A stretch of 64,000 nucleotides of DNA from Tangfeifania diversioriginum (GTDB lineage: Bacteria; Bacteroidota; Bacteroidia; Bacteroidales; Prolixibacteraceae). Of this stretch, positions 1 to 7,274 are shown piece after piece (position 1 is the first letter of the stretch; each line of letters opens with the position of its first letter). The stretch is from contig CAMCBW010000009.1 of NCBI GenBank assembly GCA_945873105.1, positions 1 to 64,000 on the forward strand, given 5' to 3'. The notes below the pieces were generated by a model, which was not told where the DNA came from, searched no databases, and was given only the letters and a program-made list of their open reading frames with translations. The position numbers and the translations under genes were made by a program.

Positions 1-258
1 GGCCGGATCTGTCCGCAGACCGCCATTGTATTCCCCAAATACCTCTATGGAGGTGCCATTGGGGGATCGGAAATCCTGGATGAAGTGGCAGAACAACAGC
101 GGCACTCGGCCGATGTAAAAACTATATTGGCCGGGGATATTTATGCGGCACTCGCGCAGAGAAAGCAGCGGCGTCAATCCATCATCCGCAACGAGGCGAT
201 GAAAAAAGCCATGGAGGAGCGGGACAAGGCGTTGAATGTTTATAAGCTCAATCAATAA
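1..258 (+). CDS. 4Fe-4S ferredoxin-like protein, C-terminal part (cut by window start)
   Basis: The reading frame is open from base 1 and ends in TAA at 256-258, giving 85 residues with no start in view. Near the beginning it reads ICPQTAIVFPKY, which resembles the final CP-x-x-A-I-x-x-P part of a bacterial 4Fe-4S ferredoxin binding motif. The rest is a charged helical tail rich in Arg, Lys and Glu. The upstream cysteines lie outside the window, so the number of clusters cannot be told. It precedes the radical SAM gene on the same strand, separated by a repeat element, and could donate electrons to it; that partnership is inference. Confidence 0.6.
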   Translation, partial: GRICPQTAIVFPKYLYGGAIGGSEILDEVAEQQRHSADVKTILAGDIYAALAQRKQRRQSIIRNEAMKKAMEERDKALNVYKLNQ

Positions 259-1739: not shown

Positions 1740-3323
1740 ATGACCAATACAGAATTATCATTGGAGGTGCCGGTTCACAAGGCGACCAGGGATGGTATCC
1801 GAAAAGAGGTGGAAGCCTGGTTTTCTGCAAAGAATATCATTCCCCCCGTTTCCTACGAGGCCATATCAGCTTTTGCCGATCAACTGTTGGCCGAAAAGGG
1901 GTGGAGCAGTAACCTGAAAGCCTTTGTGATGGTTTGCTGCGGCAATGCCATCTGGCGCGCCGTGGTTGGGGTGGTTCCCTACGACCGGAGAATTTTGTTG
2001 CTTCCGCACTGTCTGAAGAACAGCCGGTTGTGCCGGGGGCAGATGGATGAAATGGGTTTGTTGTGCGGGGAGTGCGGCAACTGCAATATTTCGGGTTTCC
2101 TGCGCGAAGCGGAGAACCTGGGTTATGTGGCCATCGTGACGGAAGGTACTGCCATCGCTGCCCGGTTGATCGAAAGCGGCAAGGTCGATGCGGTGGTGGG
2201 GGTAGGTTGCATGGAGGTGCTGCAGAAGATGTTTGCCTCCACCAGCAAATTCTCCATCCCCGGTATCGGGATACCGTTGCTCTCCTGCGGATGTGCTGAC
2301 ACCTCCGTCGACAACGAGTGGTTCAAGGAGGAGTTGTACAGCCTTACGGAAAATCCGGCCTTTCGTATTCTCAATTTGAACTACCTCCGGAACAAGACTG
2401 CCTCCATTTTCGGGGAGGAACAGCTGAAAAGGATCCTGGAACCTTCCGGAGATATGACAGAGCAATTGCTCTTTGAATCCATCCTCGCAGGGGGGAAACG
2501 GTTGCGTCCGCTTTTGACGCTGCTGGCCTATGAGGCTTTTTGTGAGCAGGTTGAAACTACCGTGCTAAACCGGCTGGCCCTCTCGATCGAATGTTTCCAC
2601 AAGGCCTCCCTGATCCACGACGACATCGAAGATGAGGACGAGATGCGCTATGGCAAGGAGACCCTGCATGCCCGTTACGGTATTCCGGTAGCCATCAACA
2701 TCGGGGATCTGCTGATAGGTGAAGGATACAGGCTGATCGCCGAAACCAATTTGCCGGCGACCACCATTCTTGAGTGCATCAAGGTGGTAGCCAATGGACA
2801 CCGGAAATTGTCTGTCGGTCAGGGGATCGAACTGATGGCATTGAAGAACAGAGAGATCCTCTCTTTGCAGGAGACCTTGAAAGTATTTGAATACAAGACC
2901 TCTACCGCCTTCAAAGTGTCGCTTTTGCTGGGTGCCACCGCCGGAGGCGCAGATCAGGAAACGCTTGCACTGCTGGATGAGTACAGCAGTGCCATTGGCA
3001 TTGCCTACCAGATCAGCGATGACCTCGATGATTTCAGCCATCCGGAGGGAGAATTTGAGCTGCTAAAACCCTCGGTTTTGGTATCCATGCTCTACGAAAA
3101 ATTGCCGGAGGCCGACAGGATCCTCTTTCAGCAGGAGCAATCCGGGGTTCAGTCCGAAACTTTGCATCAACTGATCGACCAATTTGAGATCCGTCAGATT
3201 GCCGAAGCATTGCTGAAAAGTTACATTCAGGAAGCCAAAGATTGTCTTGGCACATTTCAGAATATTGGTTTAAAAATGGCCTTGCATGAGATTCTGGGAA
3301 ACACTTTCAAAGCCTATTTATAG
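1740..3323 (+). CDS. DUF116 - trans-polyprenyl diphosphate synthase fusion
   Basis: This 527-residue protein has two parts. Residues 1 to about 215 resemble DUF116 and are cysteine-rich (Cys66, 67, 91, 98, then 109, 112 and 115 in CGECGNC), suggesting a metal or Fe-S site. Residues from about 235 to the end are a trans-isoprenyl diphosphate synthase with GGKRLRP, the first Asp-rich motif DDIED (294-298) and the second motif DDLDD (427-431). These bind the magnesium-diphosphate of allylic substrate and IPP. The residues four and five before DDIED are Ser and Ala rather than aromatic, which in characterised enzymes goes with products of C20 or longer; this is inference. Its 3' end overlaps the next gene by 38 bp. 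Confidence 0.85.
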   Translation: MTNTELSLEVPVHKATRDGIRKEVEAWFSAKNIIPPVSYEAISAFADQLLAEKGWSSNLKAFVMVCCGNAIWRAVVGVVPYDRRILLLPHCLKNSRLCRGQMDEMGLLCGECGNCNISGFLREAENLGYVAIVTEGTAIAARLIESGKVDAVVGVGCMEVLQKMFASTSKFSIPGIGIPLLSCGCADTSVDNEWFKEELYSLTENPAFRILNLNYLRNKTASIFGEEQLKRILEPSGDMTEQLLFESILAGGKRLRPLLTLLAYEAFCEQVETTVLNRLALSIECFHKASLIHDDIEDEDEMRYGKETLHARYGIPVAINIGDLLIGEGYRLIAETNLPATTILECIKVVANGHRKLSVGQGIELMALKNREILSLQETLKVFEYKTSTAFKVSLLLGATAGGADQETLALLDEYSSAIGIAYQISDDLDDFSHPEGEFELLKPSVLVSMLYEKLPEADRILFQQEQSGVQSETLHQLIDQFEIRQIAEALLKSYIQEAKDCLGTFQNIGLKMALHEILGNTFKAYL

Positions 3324-4164
3324 GTTCGCCGGAGCGAAACAGCTGGATATATTCCGGGAGAACTCACTGGAGACTGTACTGGGTAACTCTGTCAGGATGC
3401 TTGACCCTGAGACGCTGGAGGAGATGAAGGCTTACGTACGAGGTCAGCAAACTGCTTGCGGGGGATTTGCCGACAGGGGAGGAAAGTGCGATCTCTACTA
3501 TTCCCTGTTTGGACTTTTTGTATCGGAGGCACTTGGAATGCACGAAGTTTTACCTTCCCTGAAACGATACATCCGGGAGGTCTCCCAGACCGGTCAACTG
3601 GAGGGCATTCATTGGCATTGCGCAGTCATATTGTACGCGAAGCTCTTTGGCGTCGGGGCGCTTCCGCCAACTTTGCGCCAAAGGCCAAAAGCAATTGGCG
3701 ACTCCGATTGGAGCAGGCGATCCTCCTATTCGCTCTTTATCAACCTGCTGACCTTCTATTATACGGAGGACTATTACCGGCTCTACCAAACGCAGCGGGA
3801 GTTGAGGAAAATCAAGCCGGAGGCAGAAATGCCCTGTCCGGTAACGGCAGCCAACCTGGTGCTTCAGCACAGCTTTGGGATAAAAACCAATATGCTTGCC
3901 GACAAGCTGATCTCCTTTTACCGGAACGATGGCAGTTTTTCAGCTGTAAAGAATGCACCAATAGGAGACTTGTTATCCACCGGTGTGGCTCTCTATGCAA
4001 TGAAATTCATCCGCCATGATCTGCGCATCCTAAAACCGGATTGCCTGGAGTTTGTGGATTCGCTCTATTCGGAGGGGGGATTTTGTGCAACCATTCTGGA
4101 TCCCGGGACGGATGTGGAATACACCTTTTATGGACTGCTGGCGCTGGGGGCACTCGCGGAATAG
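3286..4164 (+). CDS. Single-barrel prenyltransferase/squalene-oxidase-repeat protein
   Basis: This 292-residue protein shows at least three repeats of the alpha/alpha-barrel kind found in protein prenyltransferase beta subunits and terpene cyclases: CGGFADRGGKCDLYYSLFGL near residue 60, GSFSAVKNAPIGDLLSTG near 225, and GGFCATILDPGTDVEYTFYG near 265. No signal peptide is seen. No DXDD motif is seen, so it is unlikely to be a class II cyclase alone. It overlaps the prenyl synthase gene by 38 bp, implying translational coupling. It may be a partner subunit of the cyclase or a prenyl-binding enzyme; its activity is not known. The start at 3286 is the first ATG in frame. Confidence 0.65.
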   Translation: MRFWETLSKPIYRFAGAKQLDIFRENSLETVLGNSVRMLDPETLEEMKAYVRGQQTACGGFADRGGKCDLYYSLFGLFVSEALGMHEVLPSLKRYIREVSQTGQLEGIHWHCAVILYAKLFGVGALPPTLRQRPKAIGDSDWSRRSSYSLFINLLTFYYTEDYYRLYQTQRELRKIKPEAEMPCPVTAANLVLQHSFGIKTNMLADKLISFYRNDGSFSAVKNAPIGDLLSTGVALYAMKFIRHDLRILKPDCLEFVDSLYSEGGFCATILDPGTDVEYTFYGLLALGALAE

Positions 4165-4167
4165 AAG

Positions 4168-4481
4168 AAAAAATATAACACAGAGTATAGATACATATTA
4201 TCGTGATCTTCGTTGTGATTATCATTAGCGTAGGAGAGGAAAAGGTATAGAGGAAAAAGGAGGTACACAGAGTCAATAAGTCGCAAGCGATTTATTTCAC
4301 ATTGGGCATGGTTTTTCTCTATTTTTTTTGGCAGTGAACTCTTTGAATCTGGGGGAATAATTCAATGATTAACACTACAATAATAAAGTTGTATTTTTTC
4401 TTTGCGTTCTTGGCGTCTCTGCGCGAGACTATTGACAAATTAAGATACGGAGATGCATTATTCTCTGTGTAATTTTTTATA
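4168..4481. repeat. Non-coding element with terminal inverted repeats, copy B
   Basis: This 314-bp element is related to 271-509. Its left end (4168-4188, containing ACACAGAG) is an inverted repeat of its right end (4458-4481, containing CTCTGTGT). It holds an inner hairpin around TCGCAAGCGA near 4280 preceded by CACAGAG, as in copy A. The segment 4391-4428 (TTTCTTTGCG...GCGCGAGAC) also recurs at 53384-53424. It begins 3 bp after the stop of the barrel protein and ends 4 bp before the ATG at 4486. No coding sequence is seen. Confidence 0.6.
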
Positions 4482-4485
4482 CTGT

Positions 4486-6291
4486 ATGGACCAGAAAATA
4501 TTGCATAATAGATACAAGGAATTGACTGCCATTTTGCTGCAAAAGCAAAACGCGCAAGGGTTCTGGGAGGGAAGGCTCTCCTCCAGTGCCCTTTCTACTG
4601 CCATTGGCATCGTTACCCTGAAAATCGGGGGAAGGAGTGTGGAGGATGCACAAATTCAGTTGGGTTACCAATGGCTTTCAGAAAATATCAACAACGATGG
4701 CGGTTTCGGGGATACTTCAGCAAGTAAGAGCAACGTCAGTACCAGCCTGATCTGCTATGCGGCCATCTATTATTGCCAGCTTCCCGGTAGGGGAGAGGAG
4801 TTGTTGAGGGCCATTGAAACTTACCTGAGAGCAAAAAAAATTACCCTGTCTGCAGAACAAATAACCTCGACCATCCTGGATTTCTATGGGAAAGATTACA
4901 CTTTTTCCGTCCCAATCCTCTCCTTGCTGATTATTTGCGGGGTACTGCCAACAGAAGCGATCAGCCATGTTCCACAGCTTCCGTTCGAACTCTCGCTCTT
5001 GCCCCAGACCCTCTACCGTTTCTTCAACCTGCAGGTGGTGAGTTACGCCATTCCGGCATTGATCGGGGTGGGAATTTTTATCCATACGAGAAAGAAACCA
5101 AAAATTGGTGCTGCAAAATTTTTGAGGAATAGATTTGTCGATCCTGCCATAGTTAGGTTAAACTCGTTGATGCCGGAAAGCGGAGGCTTTTTGGAGGCCA
5201 TTCCACTCACCGGCTTCGTTGCGATGTGTTTGATTGCAAGCGGAAAAGCAGAAAATGTGGTGGTAAATAAAGGGATCCGGTTTCTTGAAAACCAGCAGCG
5301 GGAGGATGGCTCCTGGCCAATCGATACCAACCTGTCGACCTGGGTGACCACCCTCAGCGTGAAGGCGCTTGGACCGCAATTGACTTCGGTCATCCCGGAA
5401 GGAAAGCTAACCCAATTAAAAAAGCACCTTCTCTCCATCCAGTACAAGGAGCAGCATCCCTTCAACGGGGCAAAACCCGGGGGGTGGGGATGGACCAGCT
5501 TTTCAGGATCGGTGCCGGATGCCGATGATACGCCGGGAGCGATCCTGGCACTGCTGGAAATGTACGATGGGAGCAAAGAGCTGAATGACGCGGTGATCGC
5601 CGGCTGCAGTTGGCTGATTGATATACAAAATTCTGATGGTGGATTTCCTACTTTCTGCAAGGGATGGGGAAAATTGCCCTTCGACAGCAGTTGTGCAGAT
5701 TTAACCGGTCATGCCTTGCTGGCTTTTATAAGTACCCTGGATAAGCTAAATGGCAAATTACCAGACCACTTGCGCAGCAGAATCCTGAAAAGTACCGATC
5801 AGGCAATTGCCTATTTGCAGAAACACCAGTCGCCGGATGGTCACTGGCTTCCGCTGTGGTTCGGCAATCAGCAGACAGATGGGTACAAAAATCCGGTCTA
5901 CGGAACCGCGAGGGTCTCTGTCTATCTATCAGATTGCCTTACCAGGAAACCTGTAAAGGGGGAGTTGGAAGAAAAACTAATTGCCATGAAAACGCTGGCC
6001 CAGGAATTCCTGCTGTTGCAGCAAAATGAGGATGGCAGCTGGGGTGGAACCAAGAACATCCCGGGCACTGCAGAGGAGACCTCCCTGGCAATTTCTGCCT
6101 TGATTGGCAGGGATAAAAAGGTATGCGAAAAGGCTTTTTCCTGGCTGGAAAAAAATGCCGACATCCAATGTTTGCCTTCCAGTCCGATAGGCCTTTATTT
6201 TGCAGCCCTTTGGTACGACGAGCAAATGTATCCTTTGGTCTTTTATGCAGAAGCACTCAGGAGATGCCTTACTTTGAAGCCTGCATTTTGA
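4486..6291 (+). CDS. Class II terpene cyclase, squalene-hopene cyclase family
   Basis: This 601-residue protein matches the two-barrel architecture and length of squalene-hopene cyclases. It has the catalytic DXDDT motif as DADDT (345-349), whose middle Asp protonates a terminal double bond. Several QW-type repeats are visible: QNAQGFW (21-27), QREDGSW, QNSDGGF, QSPDGHW and QNEDGSW. The family is usually membrane-associated, and a hydrophobic stretch follows about residue 160. An in-frame ATG exists at 4453, but those first codons fall inside the right end of the repeat element, so 4486 is preferred. No squalene synthase is in the window, so the substrate (squalene or a linear polyprenyl diphosphate from the neighbouring synthase) is open. 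The 3' end overlaps the convergent peroxiredoxin gene by 23 bp. Confidence 0.85.
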   Translation: MDQKILHNRYKELTAILLQKQNAQGFWEGRLSSSALSTAIGIVTLKIGGRSVEDAQIQLGYQWLSENINNDGGFGDTSASKSNVSTSLICYAAIYYCQLPGRGEELLRAIETYLRAKKITLSAEQITSTILDFYGKDYTFSVPILSLLIICGVLPTEAISHVPQLPFELSLLPQTLYRFFNLQVVSYAIPALIGVGIFIHTRKKPKIGAAKFLRNRFVDPAIVRLNSLMPESGGFLEAIPLTGFVAMCLIASGKAENVVVNKGIRFLENQQREDGSWPIDTNLSTWVTTLSVKALGPQLTSVIPEGKLTQLKKHLLSIQYKEQHPFNGAKPGGWGWTSFSGSVPDADDTPGAILALLEMYDGSKELNDAVIAGCSWLIDIQNSDGGFPTFCKGWGKLPFDSSCADLTGHALLAFISTLDKLNGKLPDHLRSRILKSTDQAIAYLQKHQSPDGHWLPLWFGNQQTDGYKNPVYGTARVSVYLSDCLTRKPVKGELEEKLIAMKTLAQEFLLLQQNEDGSWGGTKNIPGTAEETSLAISALIGRDKKVCEKAFSWLEKNADIQCLPSSPIGLYFAALWYDEQMYPLVFYAEALRRCLTLKPAF

Positions 6292-6844
6292 TAAAATTCA
6301 GCACCTCTTCTGCATCTTTTTCCGCATTGACTGACTCATTTTTGTAGATGATTTTCTTGTCCTTCCCAACTACAAAGGTCCACCGTTTTGCTGAAACTCC
6401 GCGTACCAGTTCATGTTCAGTACCCCCAACGGTGCGCTTGATAGCACCTCCGGCACCGGCCGGAACTCCAAACGCTTTGGCGATTTCGCCCTTTTCATCG
6501 GAAAGAAGCGTGAAGTTTAGGTTTTCGGCCTGTTTGAAAAGCTTGAGGTTTTCAACTTTGTCGCCACTTACACCCACCACCACCACTCCGGCTGATTGAA
6601 GGGTTTCTCTGCTGTCGCGGTAGGCACAGGCTTGTTTGGTGCATCCACCGGTCATTGCAGCAGGATAAAAGTAAACAACGATATAATCCTTGCCAAGATA
6701 TTTGCTCATCTTCCATGTCGAACCATCGTCGGCAGTGGCTTTAAAGTCTGGTGCCTTTTCCCCGACTGAAACTCCTTGCTGACCAACAGCCGAAAATGAA
6801 ACGTACAATGAGAGAACCAAGGCGCTTAAGAGTAATTTTTTCAT
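6269..6844 (-). CDS. Exported peroxiredoxin, BCP/AhpC-TSA type
   Basis: This 191-residue protein has an N-terminal signal peptide (MKKLLLSALVLSLYVSFSA, cleavage near residue 21) followed by a thioredoxin-fold peroxiredoxin. The active-site region YFYPAAMTGGCTKQAC places the peroxidatic Cys at 68 and a second Cys at 73, the spacing of atypical 2-Cys BCP-type enzymes. It would reduce peroxides in the periplasm using a thiol donor. Most BCP proteins are cytoplasmic, so export is notable. Its stop lies inside the 3' end of the terpene cyclase gene on the other strand. Confidence 0.88.
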   Translation of the reverse strand: MKKLLLSALVLSLYVSFSAVGQQGVSVGEKAPDFKATADDGSTWKMSKYLGKDYIVVYFYPAAMTGGCTKQACAYRDSRETLQSAGVVVVGVSGDKVENLKLFKQAENLNFTLLSDEKGEIAKAFGVPAGAGGAIKRTVGGTEHELVRGVSAKRWTFVVGKDKKIIYKNESVNAEKDAEEVLNFIKMQASK

Positions 6845-6938: not shown

Positions 6939-7274
6939 CTAATTGATAGATCTCAAGTTGGTTAACGCATCCGGGACAAACTGTAGAATATTCCCAATCG
7001 TAGCACACTGTTCCAGTTCGCTGCAATCGCCGCAGGTATTGAATCCTTTGGATCTGGCACATTTCCGAATTTCACATTCGGAACAATGGCTGAATTTTAC
7101 CCCCTCTTCCCGGCAACCGGTGCAGTTGATCATATCGGGCATGATCTCCGCACTGAACTGAATACTCCAGCTTTCGGCTGTTTTGACCCGCAACTCCTGA
7201 TCATTGGCGATGGTCGCTTTTCTGGCATCACAAGTGGCGCAGTCGATTCCGCAACAGGCTACATATTTTTCCAT
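6939..7274 (-). CDS. DUF3795 domain protein, cysteine-rich
   Basis: This 111-residue cytoplasmic protein begins MEKYVACCGIDCATCDARKAT, the usual opening of DUF3795, and contains eleven or more cysteines in CxxC-like groups (INCTGC, HCSECEIRKC, CGDCSELEQC). Small proteins of this family are thought to bind zinc, but no function is established. It is followed on the same strand by the peroxiredoxin, 94 bp away. No regulatory site stood out. Confidence 0.8.
   Translation of the reverse strand: MEKYVACCGIDCATCDARKATIANDQELRVKTAESWSIQFSAEIMPDMINCTGCREEGVKFSHCSECEIRKCARSKGFNTCGDCSELEQCATIGNILQFVPDALTNLRSIN

Follow-up and report, generated by a model that had tools for sequence, protein, structure and literature searches.

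What does an enzyme with the fold of a prenyl-diphosphate synthase do with a cysteine-rich domain built into the same chain? The question is raised by a locus at the start of a 64,000-nucleotide stretch of DNA from Tangfeifania diversioriginum (contig CAMCBW010000009.1, positions 1 to 64,000; hereafter, the window), where a DUF116 domain is fused to a polyprenyl synthetase domain. The fusion gene belongs to a set of five genes, whose features in the window are collected in Table 1. The reading we favour, and regard as evenly poised between right and wrong, is that these five genes specify a route to a cyclic terpenoid lipid that would require neither a squalene/phytoene synthase nor, judging from the genes, oxygen, with the fusion as its prenyl-diphosphate-handling enzyme.

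Table 1. Features of the five-gene set; positions are counted from the first nucleotide of the window.
Feature	Position	Strand	Basis
Ferredoxin-like (FeS) protein, last 85 codons and stop; first gene of the set	1..258	+	Open-ended frame; 5' part lies off the contig start
Radical SAM enzyme, twitch/SPASM-like C-terminus, 392 aa	545..1723	+	Pfam Radical_SAM, E 1.2e-14
Fusion protein, 527 aa	1740..3323	+	Single stop-free ORF and Pfam matches
DUF116 domain, residues 63-198, seven conserved cysteines	1926..2333	+	Pfam and conservation across fusions
Polyprenyl_synt domain match, residues 245-435	2472..3044	+	Pfam; fold match wider, residues 210-527
First Asp-rich motif, D294-D298	2619..2633	+	Kept in 73/73 fusions
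R303-Y304, Tyr replacing the second Arg of the usual RR pair	2646..2651	+	Tyr in 72/73 fusions, Arg in 30/30 separate synthases (best-scoring)
Second Asp-rich motif, D427-D431	3018..3032	+	Alignment of fusions
T292, small alpha-toroid protein	3286..4164	+	Start overlaps fusion gene end; Pfam Prenyltrans, E 9.8e-5, below cut-off
SHC-like class II terpene cyclase, 612 aa, D356-A-D358-D359-T	4453..6291	+	Pfam SQHop_cyclase_C, E 3.8e-28, and _N, E 1.9e-17

The fusion protein and its distribution

The original prediction was that of two domains in a single gene, and this architecture is borne out. One frame carries both Pfam domains far above their gathering cut-offs, namely DUF116 (PF01976) with 105.7 bits (E 2.1e-30; cut-off 25) and polyprenyl_synt (PF00348) with 147.1 bits (E 6.9e-43; cut-off 27). 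The DUF116 profile falls in the N-terminal part of the protein, as had been foreseen, and both Asp-rich motifs, D294-D295-x-x-D298 and D427-D428-x-x-D431 in an alignment of nine sequences, lie in the same uninterrupted frame. A frameshift or an assembly join of two separate genes is excluded, because the fusion recurs in many genomes as one frame. The sole exception seen is locus L035 (genome G443), where the frame is split into pieces of 437 and 186 residues and the set is otherwise complete; this reflects either a sequencing error or decay, and the broken row is counted among the 73 fusion rows considered below. We conclude that the fusion of DUF116 to a prenyl enzyme is real and old.

A scan of a genome collection with the window protein, limited to the patterns of close relatives, returned 8 loci (7 Bacteroidota and 1 Planctomycetota), each spanning both domains. 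A search of 100 relatives with the DUF116 half found matches in 34 at E 1e-5; in 31 of these, the window's own genome included, the match was no weaker than E 1.8e-42 and lay in a frame of at least 458 residues, with 29 among the 60 relatives from the same genus and family and 2 among the 40 from the order. Among 395 genomes sampled from the phylum, the only strong match was in the window's own genome, two others being weak and in short frames. Among 294 Planctomycetota genomes, 78 matched at E 1e-8 and 66 at E 4.2e-29 or better (63 of the latter in frames of at least 480 residues), these being counts that rest on the DUF116 half, as the prenyl half was checked in the fetched loci only. From these match counts, we conclude that the fusion is common across Planctomycetota and that in Bacteroidota it occurs patchily within a single family. 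Searched with a profile built on the entire fusion, the fetched loci gave 73 rows above 300 bits, 37 from Bacteroidota and 36 from Planctomycetota. The gene-set counts exclude two duplicates (L004 of L034, and L120 of L011), one locus with a fusion score of 278 against the limit of 300 (L125), and seven DUF116-only loci. These seven (L064-L067, L138-L140) come from genomes of both phyla in which DUF116 occurs without the prenyl domain. A stand-alone DUF116 copy also lies beside the fusion in two Planctomycetota (G529, G539), and G782 has two such copies.

An excerpt from PMC5898192 describes DUF116 as marked by at least six conserved cysteines with a CxxCxxC motif, and proposes for it electron transfer and a flavodoxin-like fold. 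The window protein has seven such cysteines (C91, C98, C109, C112, C115, C157 and C185), which include C109-x2-C112-x2-C115 and are invariant in the nine-sequence alignment; each is kept in 72 or 73 of the 73 fusion rows. Seven was also the number of cysteines that the original prediction had assigned to residues 1-215, a count that is too low for the translation, which has ten, and exact for the conserved positions. The AlphaFold2 model of the fusion, built from nine sequences, has a mean pLDDT of 82.0 and a pTM of 0.81. It is good in the prenyl half and weaker in the DUF116 half, where residues 84-200 form alternating strands and helices at pLDDT 46-80 and residues 92-113 fall below 50. The matches of a fold search with this model were filled by the prenyl half, covering residues 210-527. 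Judged by its sequence, DUF116 is probably an iron-sulfur domain.

Conserved and altered residues of the prenyl domain

The prenyl half (residues 210-527) aligns with 6kd7 at Z 32.2 and an rmsd of 2.4 over 307 residues (VIA-align). Human FPPS residue numbers were carried over to it using the distances to the GGK and DDxxD motifs together with pairwise alignments. The controls were the 30 best-scoring separate synthase loci from cassette-bearing genomes, 8 further non-fusion rows having been left out. According to an excerpt from PMC7815940, the IPP diphosphate is in direct contact with Lys57, Arg60 and Arg113 in human FPPS, and the diphosphate of the allylic substrate is bound by Arg112, Lys200 and Lys257.

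The first Asp-rich motif (D294, D295, D298) is present in all 73 fusions, and the Arg112 place and the Lys-Thr pair are also kept. The IPP-site trio Lys57/Arg60/Arg113, by contrast, is incomplete in the window. In an alignment to which the controls were added at fixed length, and which may thus favour the columns of the fusion, the Arg113 place is Tyr in 72 of the 73 fusions, including the window (Y304), and Arg in 30 of the 30 best-scoring controls. Single-pair alignments give the same register, with Y304 opposite Arg in both 5jfq and 7lbj. The Lys57 place is Lys in 49 of the 73 fusions, the window among them, and otherwise Gln (20), His (2), Gly (1) or Arg (1), versus Lys in all 30 controls. 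Residue 288 is Lys in every one of the 73 fusions and never in the controls, and residue 320 is Asn in the 72 fusions with letters at this position, versus Leu in 29 of the 30 controls. The second Asp-rich motif, which is Asp throughout in 30 of 30 controls, has Asn at its first place in 16 and Glu at its last place in 23 of the 72 fusion rows with letters; 39 of these 72 rows have the relaxed form NDxxD or DDxxE, and the window retains DDxxD. The Arg60 place is Arg, and the equivalent of H96 (His at -7) is kept, in 73 of 73. Because of these residue changes relative to the 30 best-scoring controls, the prenyl domain is, at the level of sequence, conserved in its allylic half and altered in its IPP half. 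The identification as a polyprenyl diphosphate synthase with which we began is consistent with profile, fold and Asp-rich motifs, and is made uncertain by the altered IPP pocket.

The protein might nonetheless be a polyprenyl diphosphate synthase of the ordinary kind, making long or medium chains, with DUF116 as a redox-sensing regulator and the cyclase of the set acting on its product. Both the whole prenyl fold and the intact first Asp-rich motif are consistent with this, as are the Ala at -5 and Ser at -4 that precede this motif in 73 of 73 fusions, as in the longer-chain synthases among the controls. The equivalents of R60 and H96 are invariant, K57 is kept in 49 of 73, and K288, present in all 73, might take over from the lost Arg; ordinary elongation with IPP may therefore still take place. 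An ordinary synthase is harder to reconcile with the replacement of an IPP-binding Arg by Tyr in 72 of 73 fusions, with the loss of an IPP-binding Lys in 23 of 73 (one of them Arg), or with Asn instead of Leu at residue 320 in 72 of 72. Nor would a sensor be expected to hold seven cysteines nearly invariant across two phyla. In addition, apart from the fusion, 16 of 18 carrier genomes contain exactly two other synthase places, so that their housekeeping chains are independent of it. On balance, we consider an ordinary synthase unlikely. Chain length could not be settled from the residues before the first Asp-rich motif, as Ala at -5 occurs in 16 of the 30 best-scoring controls too. It is also found in eukaryotic GGPP synthases.

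Loss of IPP-binding residues has a counterpart in insects, where, as stated in an excerpt from PMC12376265, it marks terpene synthases descended from prenyl synthases, with both Asp-rich motifs largely kept. By analogy, the fused domain would be a class I terpene synthase that ionises and cyclises its substrate without IPP. In the fusion, however, the loss is only partial, in that R60, H96 and the Lys-Thr pair are retained, and a class I enzyme would leave no role for the Fe-S domain. We thus regard this possibility as very unlikely.

A tree of the prenyl domain was obtained by a quick search from 102 of the 103 rows, leaving out the broken L035 and without unfused relatives from other phyla. 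Within this sampling, the 72 fusions lie on one side of a branch with SH-aLRT 100 and the 30 controls on the other, which fits a single origin of the fusions. A Planctomycetota subgroup of 16 rows (L121-L135 and others) also forms one branch (SH-aLRT 100); here the cyclase gene lies upstream of the fusion, and the second motif is N-D-x-x-D, which accounts for the 16 of 72 rows with Asn at its first place.

The five-gene set

Counted over loci from mutually related genomes, and hence not over independent events, the genes for the ferredoxin-like protein, the radical SAM/twitch enzyme, the fusion, T292 and the class II cyclase follow each other in this fixed order on one strand in 33 of 37 Bacteroidota loci. 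The window, L034, L054 and L060, which make up the rest, are interrupted by contig ends. All five genes are on one strand in 14 of 36 Planctomycetota loci, 10 of which have the Bacteroidota order; the cyclase gene is beside the fusion in 28 of the 36, and at least one gene is locally absent in 22.

The radical SAM enzyme had been named as a partner of the fusion, and the association is confirmed on a wider scale. Redox sensing by DUF116 and delivery of the chain to this enzyme, suggested at the same time, are putative roles; the ferredoxin-like protein, T292, the cyclase and the altered IPP pocket were not part of the original prediction. Of the 37 Bacteroidota loci, 35 (the window among them) have the radical SAM gene directly beside the fusion, and the other two reach contig ends first. 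Sixteen Planctomycetota genomes have no radical SAM gene on the fusion's strand at the locus, and 13 of them contain an orthologue (364-472 bits), which in two cases (G619 and G665) is at the locus on the opposite strand; in the other three (G585, G605 and G643), none was found at E 1e-40. As a control, 32 fusion-less genomes were searched, of which 9 matched at E 1e-15 and 3 at E 1e-40 (141-192 bits, partial cover); a full orthologue was not seen in these 32 genomes, the best match having 192 bits. Distant, longer relatives, in frames of about 478-505 residues (115-192 bits), occur in the fusion-less genomes G427, G438, G407, G426, G506 and G508, two of them side by side at G427:C1:60249-62996.

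With the two genes adjacent, DUF116 could be a tethered electron-transfer module for the neighbouring radical SAM enzyme, an explanation akin to the electron-transfer role that the excerpt from PMC5898192 put forward for this domain in 2015. It would, however, leave unexplained the remodelled IPP pocket that accompanies the fusion, and the tethering to a synthase in all 73 rows would be incidental. In our assessment, this explanation is very improbable.

Among the partners, the ferredoxin-like protein matches Fer4-type profiles at about residues 133-190, and its best NCBIfam rows, HgcB and PorD/KorD, are below cut-off. The truncated window frame agrees by eye with the C-terminal part of the alignment of this family at R-I-C-P, G-G-A-I-G-G-S and R-Q-S-I-I-R-x-E-A-M-K-K-A. 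In Planctomycetota (L106-L145), the protein is often encoded as two overlapping frames, N-terminal at about 1-108 and C-terminal at about 122-252 (for example, L109, L110, L112, L115 and L116), and at those loci it seems to be two genes. The radical SAM enzyme carries its CxxxCxxC motif (C55, C59, C62), as well as C266, C285 and C324, in 52 of 52 rows. Among solved structures, the profile comparison places it closest to SkfB (E 6.9e-12) and cytosylglucuronate decarboxylase, with the tetraether synthase 7tol following as a weaker match (E 1.7e-7).

T292 was modeled with AlphaFold2 at pLDDT 87.8. Its best fold match in VIA is RabGGTase beta (Z 19.6, rmsd 2.9, 244 aligned residues, 15% identity), followed by farnesyltransferases (about 18) and SHC (17.4); Foldseek ranks squalene-hopene cyclase first (E 5.4e-4), and the best PDB sequence match is RabGGTase beta (E 4.2e-5). 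Residues Y71, Y72, D228, D276, E278 and Y279 are invariant in the 58 rows with letters. Searched for elsewhere in Planctomycetota, T292 has matches at E 1e-6 in 11 of 13 genomes; in G605 and G643 the match is to the local gene, and the other matches are weak (31.8-46.9 bits) and perhaps represent any toroid protein. In the cyclase, the three Asp of the DxDD motif are found in 62 of 62 rows with letters, and they align with PDVDDT of the SHC 1gsz.

None of the proteins of the set reached an NCBIfam cut-off among the matches listed, which for the radical SAM enzyme comprise 25 of 56 rows, and we therefore rejected NCBIfam equivalogs for the fusion, the radical SAM enzyme and the cyclase. The best row listed for the fusion, the encapsulin cargo polyprenyl transferase NF041169, was likewise dismissed, with 128 bits against a cut-off of 450. 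On the 3' side of the set, the minus strand of the window encodes a peroxiredoxin (6269-6844; AhpC-TSA, E 2.7e-33, Pfam) and a DUF3795 protein (6939-7274; E 3.2e-17, Pfam). In many Bacteroidota relatives (L041-L063), the other strand at this place has recurring genes for proteins of about 365, 425-475 and 146-163 residues.

A cyclase of the SHC class raises the question of a hopanoid pathway. A protein of the SQS_PSY family (squalene/phytoene synthase) was not found in the window's own genome. Among 35 other carriers of the fusion, it is absent from 12 and present in 23, mostly at about 280 residues, and these proteins are possibly, by our guess, carotenoid enzymes. Because 23 of the 35 carriers have SQS_PSY, independence from it is supported in the remaining carriers only. 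Of 15 Bacteroidota carriers, 14 have all their SQHop_cyclase_C matches within a single frame, and none was found in G437; in G416 and G469, this frame is on a contig other than that of the fusion. Five Planctomycetota carriers possess a true SHC (326-489 bits) and HpnH (528-545 bits) elsewhere in the genome, and in four of the five the set's own cyclase scores 84.7-94.7 bits, versus 326-473 bits for the true SHC. HpnH above cut-off was not found in a sixth Planctomycetota genome tested (G681), nor in eight Bacteroidota. On the radical SAM genes of the set, the HpnH model (TIGR03470, cut-off 225) yields 32.4-44.9 bits, with 33.2 for the window gene, and the cyclase reaches 71.3 of the 431 bits of the hopene_cyclase equivalog TIGR01507. 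Thus, we reject membership in a hopanoid operon. The set is not a hopanoid pathway, though its cyclase is of the SHC class, because the true SHC and HpnH are located elsewhere and the HpnH and hopene_cyclase cut-offs are not reached; the lack of SQS_PSY in the window's own genome points the same way.

These results also bear on whether the fusion replaces a squalene synthase, by an Fe-S-dependent reductive head-to-head coupling of two allylic diphosphates whose product, a squalene-like C30 or another polyene, would go to the cyclase. The second molecule would occupy the altered IPP site, and DUF116 would give the electrons. The occurrence of an SHC-class cyclase in genomes without SQS_PSY, the altered pocket for the second substrate, and the predicted Fe-S domain with its ferredoxin-like partner could all be accounted for in this way. 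However, given SQS_PSY in 23 of 35 carriers, and a true SHC and HpnH in five Planctomycetota, some carriers would have two routes, and the cyclase of the set is far from true SHC in the four genomes where the two can be compared. A coupling enzyme therefore seems to us highly doubtful.

A proposed route and its relation to known systems

Our favoured reading of a terpenoid route draws on the gene order and co-occurrence, the conserved cysteines and DxDD motif, the pocket changes, the SQS_PSY absences and the separate hopanoid genes, all of which are observed. We propose the following order of steps, with putative clusters, substrates and product. First, an allylic diphosphate supplied by a housekeeping synthase would bind at the conserved first Asp-rich motif of the fusion. 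Second, because the IPP half of the pocket is remodelled, either the second substrate would be a different one, or IPP would be held otherwise than in ordinary elongation. Third, the seven cysteines of DUF116 would carry one or more Fe-S clusters that receive electrons from the ferredoxin-like protein; the domain might then act in a reaction at or near the prenyl end, or pass electrons on to the radical SAM enzyme. Fourth, the class II cyclase, with its DxDD motif as the acid, would cyclise the polyene, and T292, given its toroid fold, may be its partner or provide a second pocket. Last, the radical SAM enzyme would modify the product.

If this reading is true, there is a terpenoid lipid pathway common to two bacterial phyla that is unnamed in profile libraries. 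There is also an Fe-S domain built into a prenyl-diphosphate enzyme together with a matching change in the IPP pocket, which poses the question of the ligand of the second site. Even if the fusion is a plain synthase, the five-gene set is a defined target for knock-out and lipid analysis. A more specific version, which we rate as quite unlikely, is that the five genes are the enzymatic origin of regular, head-to-tail polyprenoids that anaerobic bacteria cyclise: the Fe-S fusion would process a prenyl diphosphate, and the non-squalene class II cyclase would convert it to tricyclic or polycyclic polyprenols such as tricyclohexaprenol. To our knowledge, tricyclohexaprenol has long been proposed as the precursor of petroleum tricyclic terpanes without known genes. 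A regular-polyprenoid product, if true, would be relevant to how the tricyclic terpanes of sediments arose; an excerpt from PMC10319793 suggests prokaryotic tricyclohexaprenol as their precursor. Within the library searched, no match was obtained for cheilanthane, polyprenol and cyclase together, or for tricyclic terpane with squalene-hopene cyclase.

Several known systems resemble parts of the set. RabGGTase beta, a protein prenyltransferase beta subunit, is the closest second-look fold of T292 and its best PDB sequence match. In a weak alignment, however, T292 has conserved C-terminal D-x-E-Y-T and D-x-Y-Y at places that would correspond to D-x-C and D-x-x-H, the zinc ligand positions of prenyltransferase beta. 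Trans-polyprenyl diphosphate synthases (GGPP, hexaprenyl and decaprenyl; 6kd7, 1wy0 and 3mzv) share with the fusion the fold (Z 30-32), the first Asp-rich motif, the Arg of the allylic site and the Lys-Thr pair; the fusion differs in having DUF116, Tyr in place of an IPP-site Arg, Gln often in place of Lys, an extra Lys at -6, and Asn320. The hopanoid operon (SHC, HpnC/D/E, HpnH) likewise has an SHC-like DxDD class II cyclase near a radical SAM gene, whereas here SQS_PSY is missing from the window's own genome, the radical SAM genes have 32-45 bits against the HpnH cut-off of 225, and true SHC and HpnH are separate in five Planctomycetota. The C35 pathway of Bacillus proceeds through heptaprenyl diphosphate, a tetraprenyl-beta-curcumene synthase and a cyclase. 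The five-gene set differs from it in having no gene for a class I curcumene synthase, and we know of no counterpart in that pathway to the Fe-S fusion, the radical SAM enzyme or T292. The two are alike in that reference titles in an excerpt from PMC4191879 describe the Bacillus C35 sesquarterpenes as a regular head-to-tail chain cyclised by an SHC-class enzyme.

Within the library searched, we found neither the gene set nor the pocket change described. The excerpt from PMC5898192 mentions a fusion of DUF116 and polyprenyl synthetase for Pirellula staleyi Psta_0175 in one sentence, with no gene set, pocket or pathway. Psta_0175 has the same two-domain architecture as the window fusion, and the Planctomycetota copies analysed here, which do not include Psta_0175 itself, share the window's clade. 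That is, the architecture is known, and its five-gene setting seems to be new within the literature searched.
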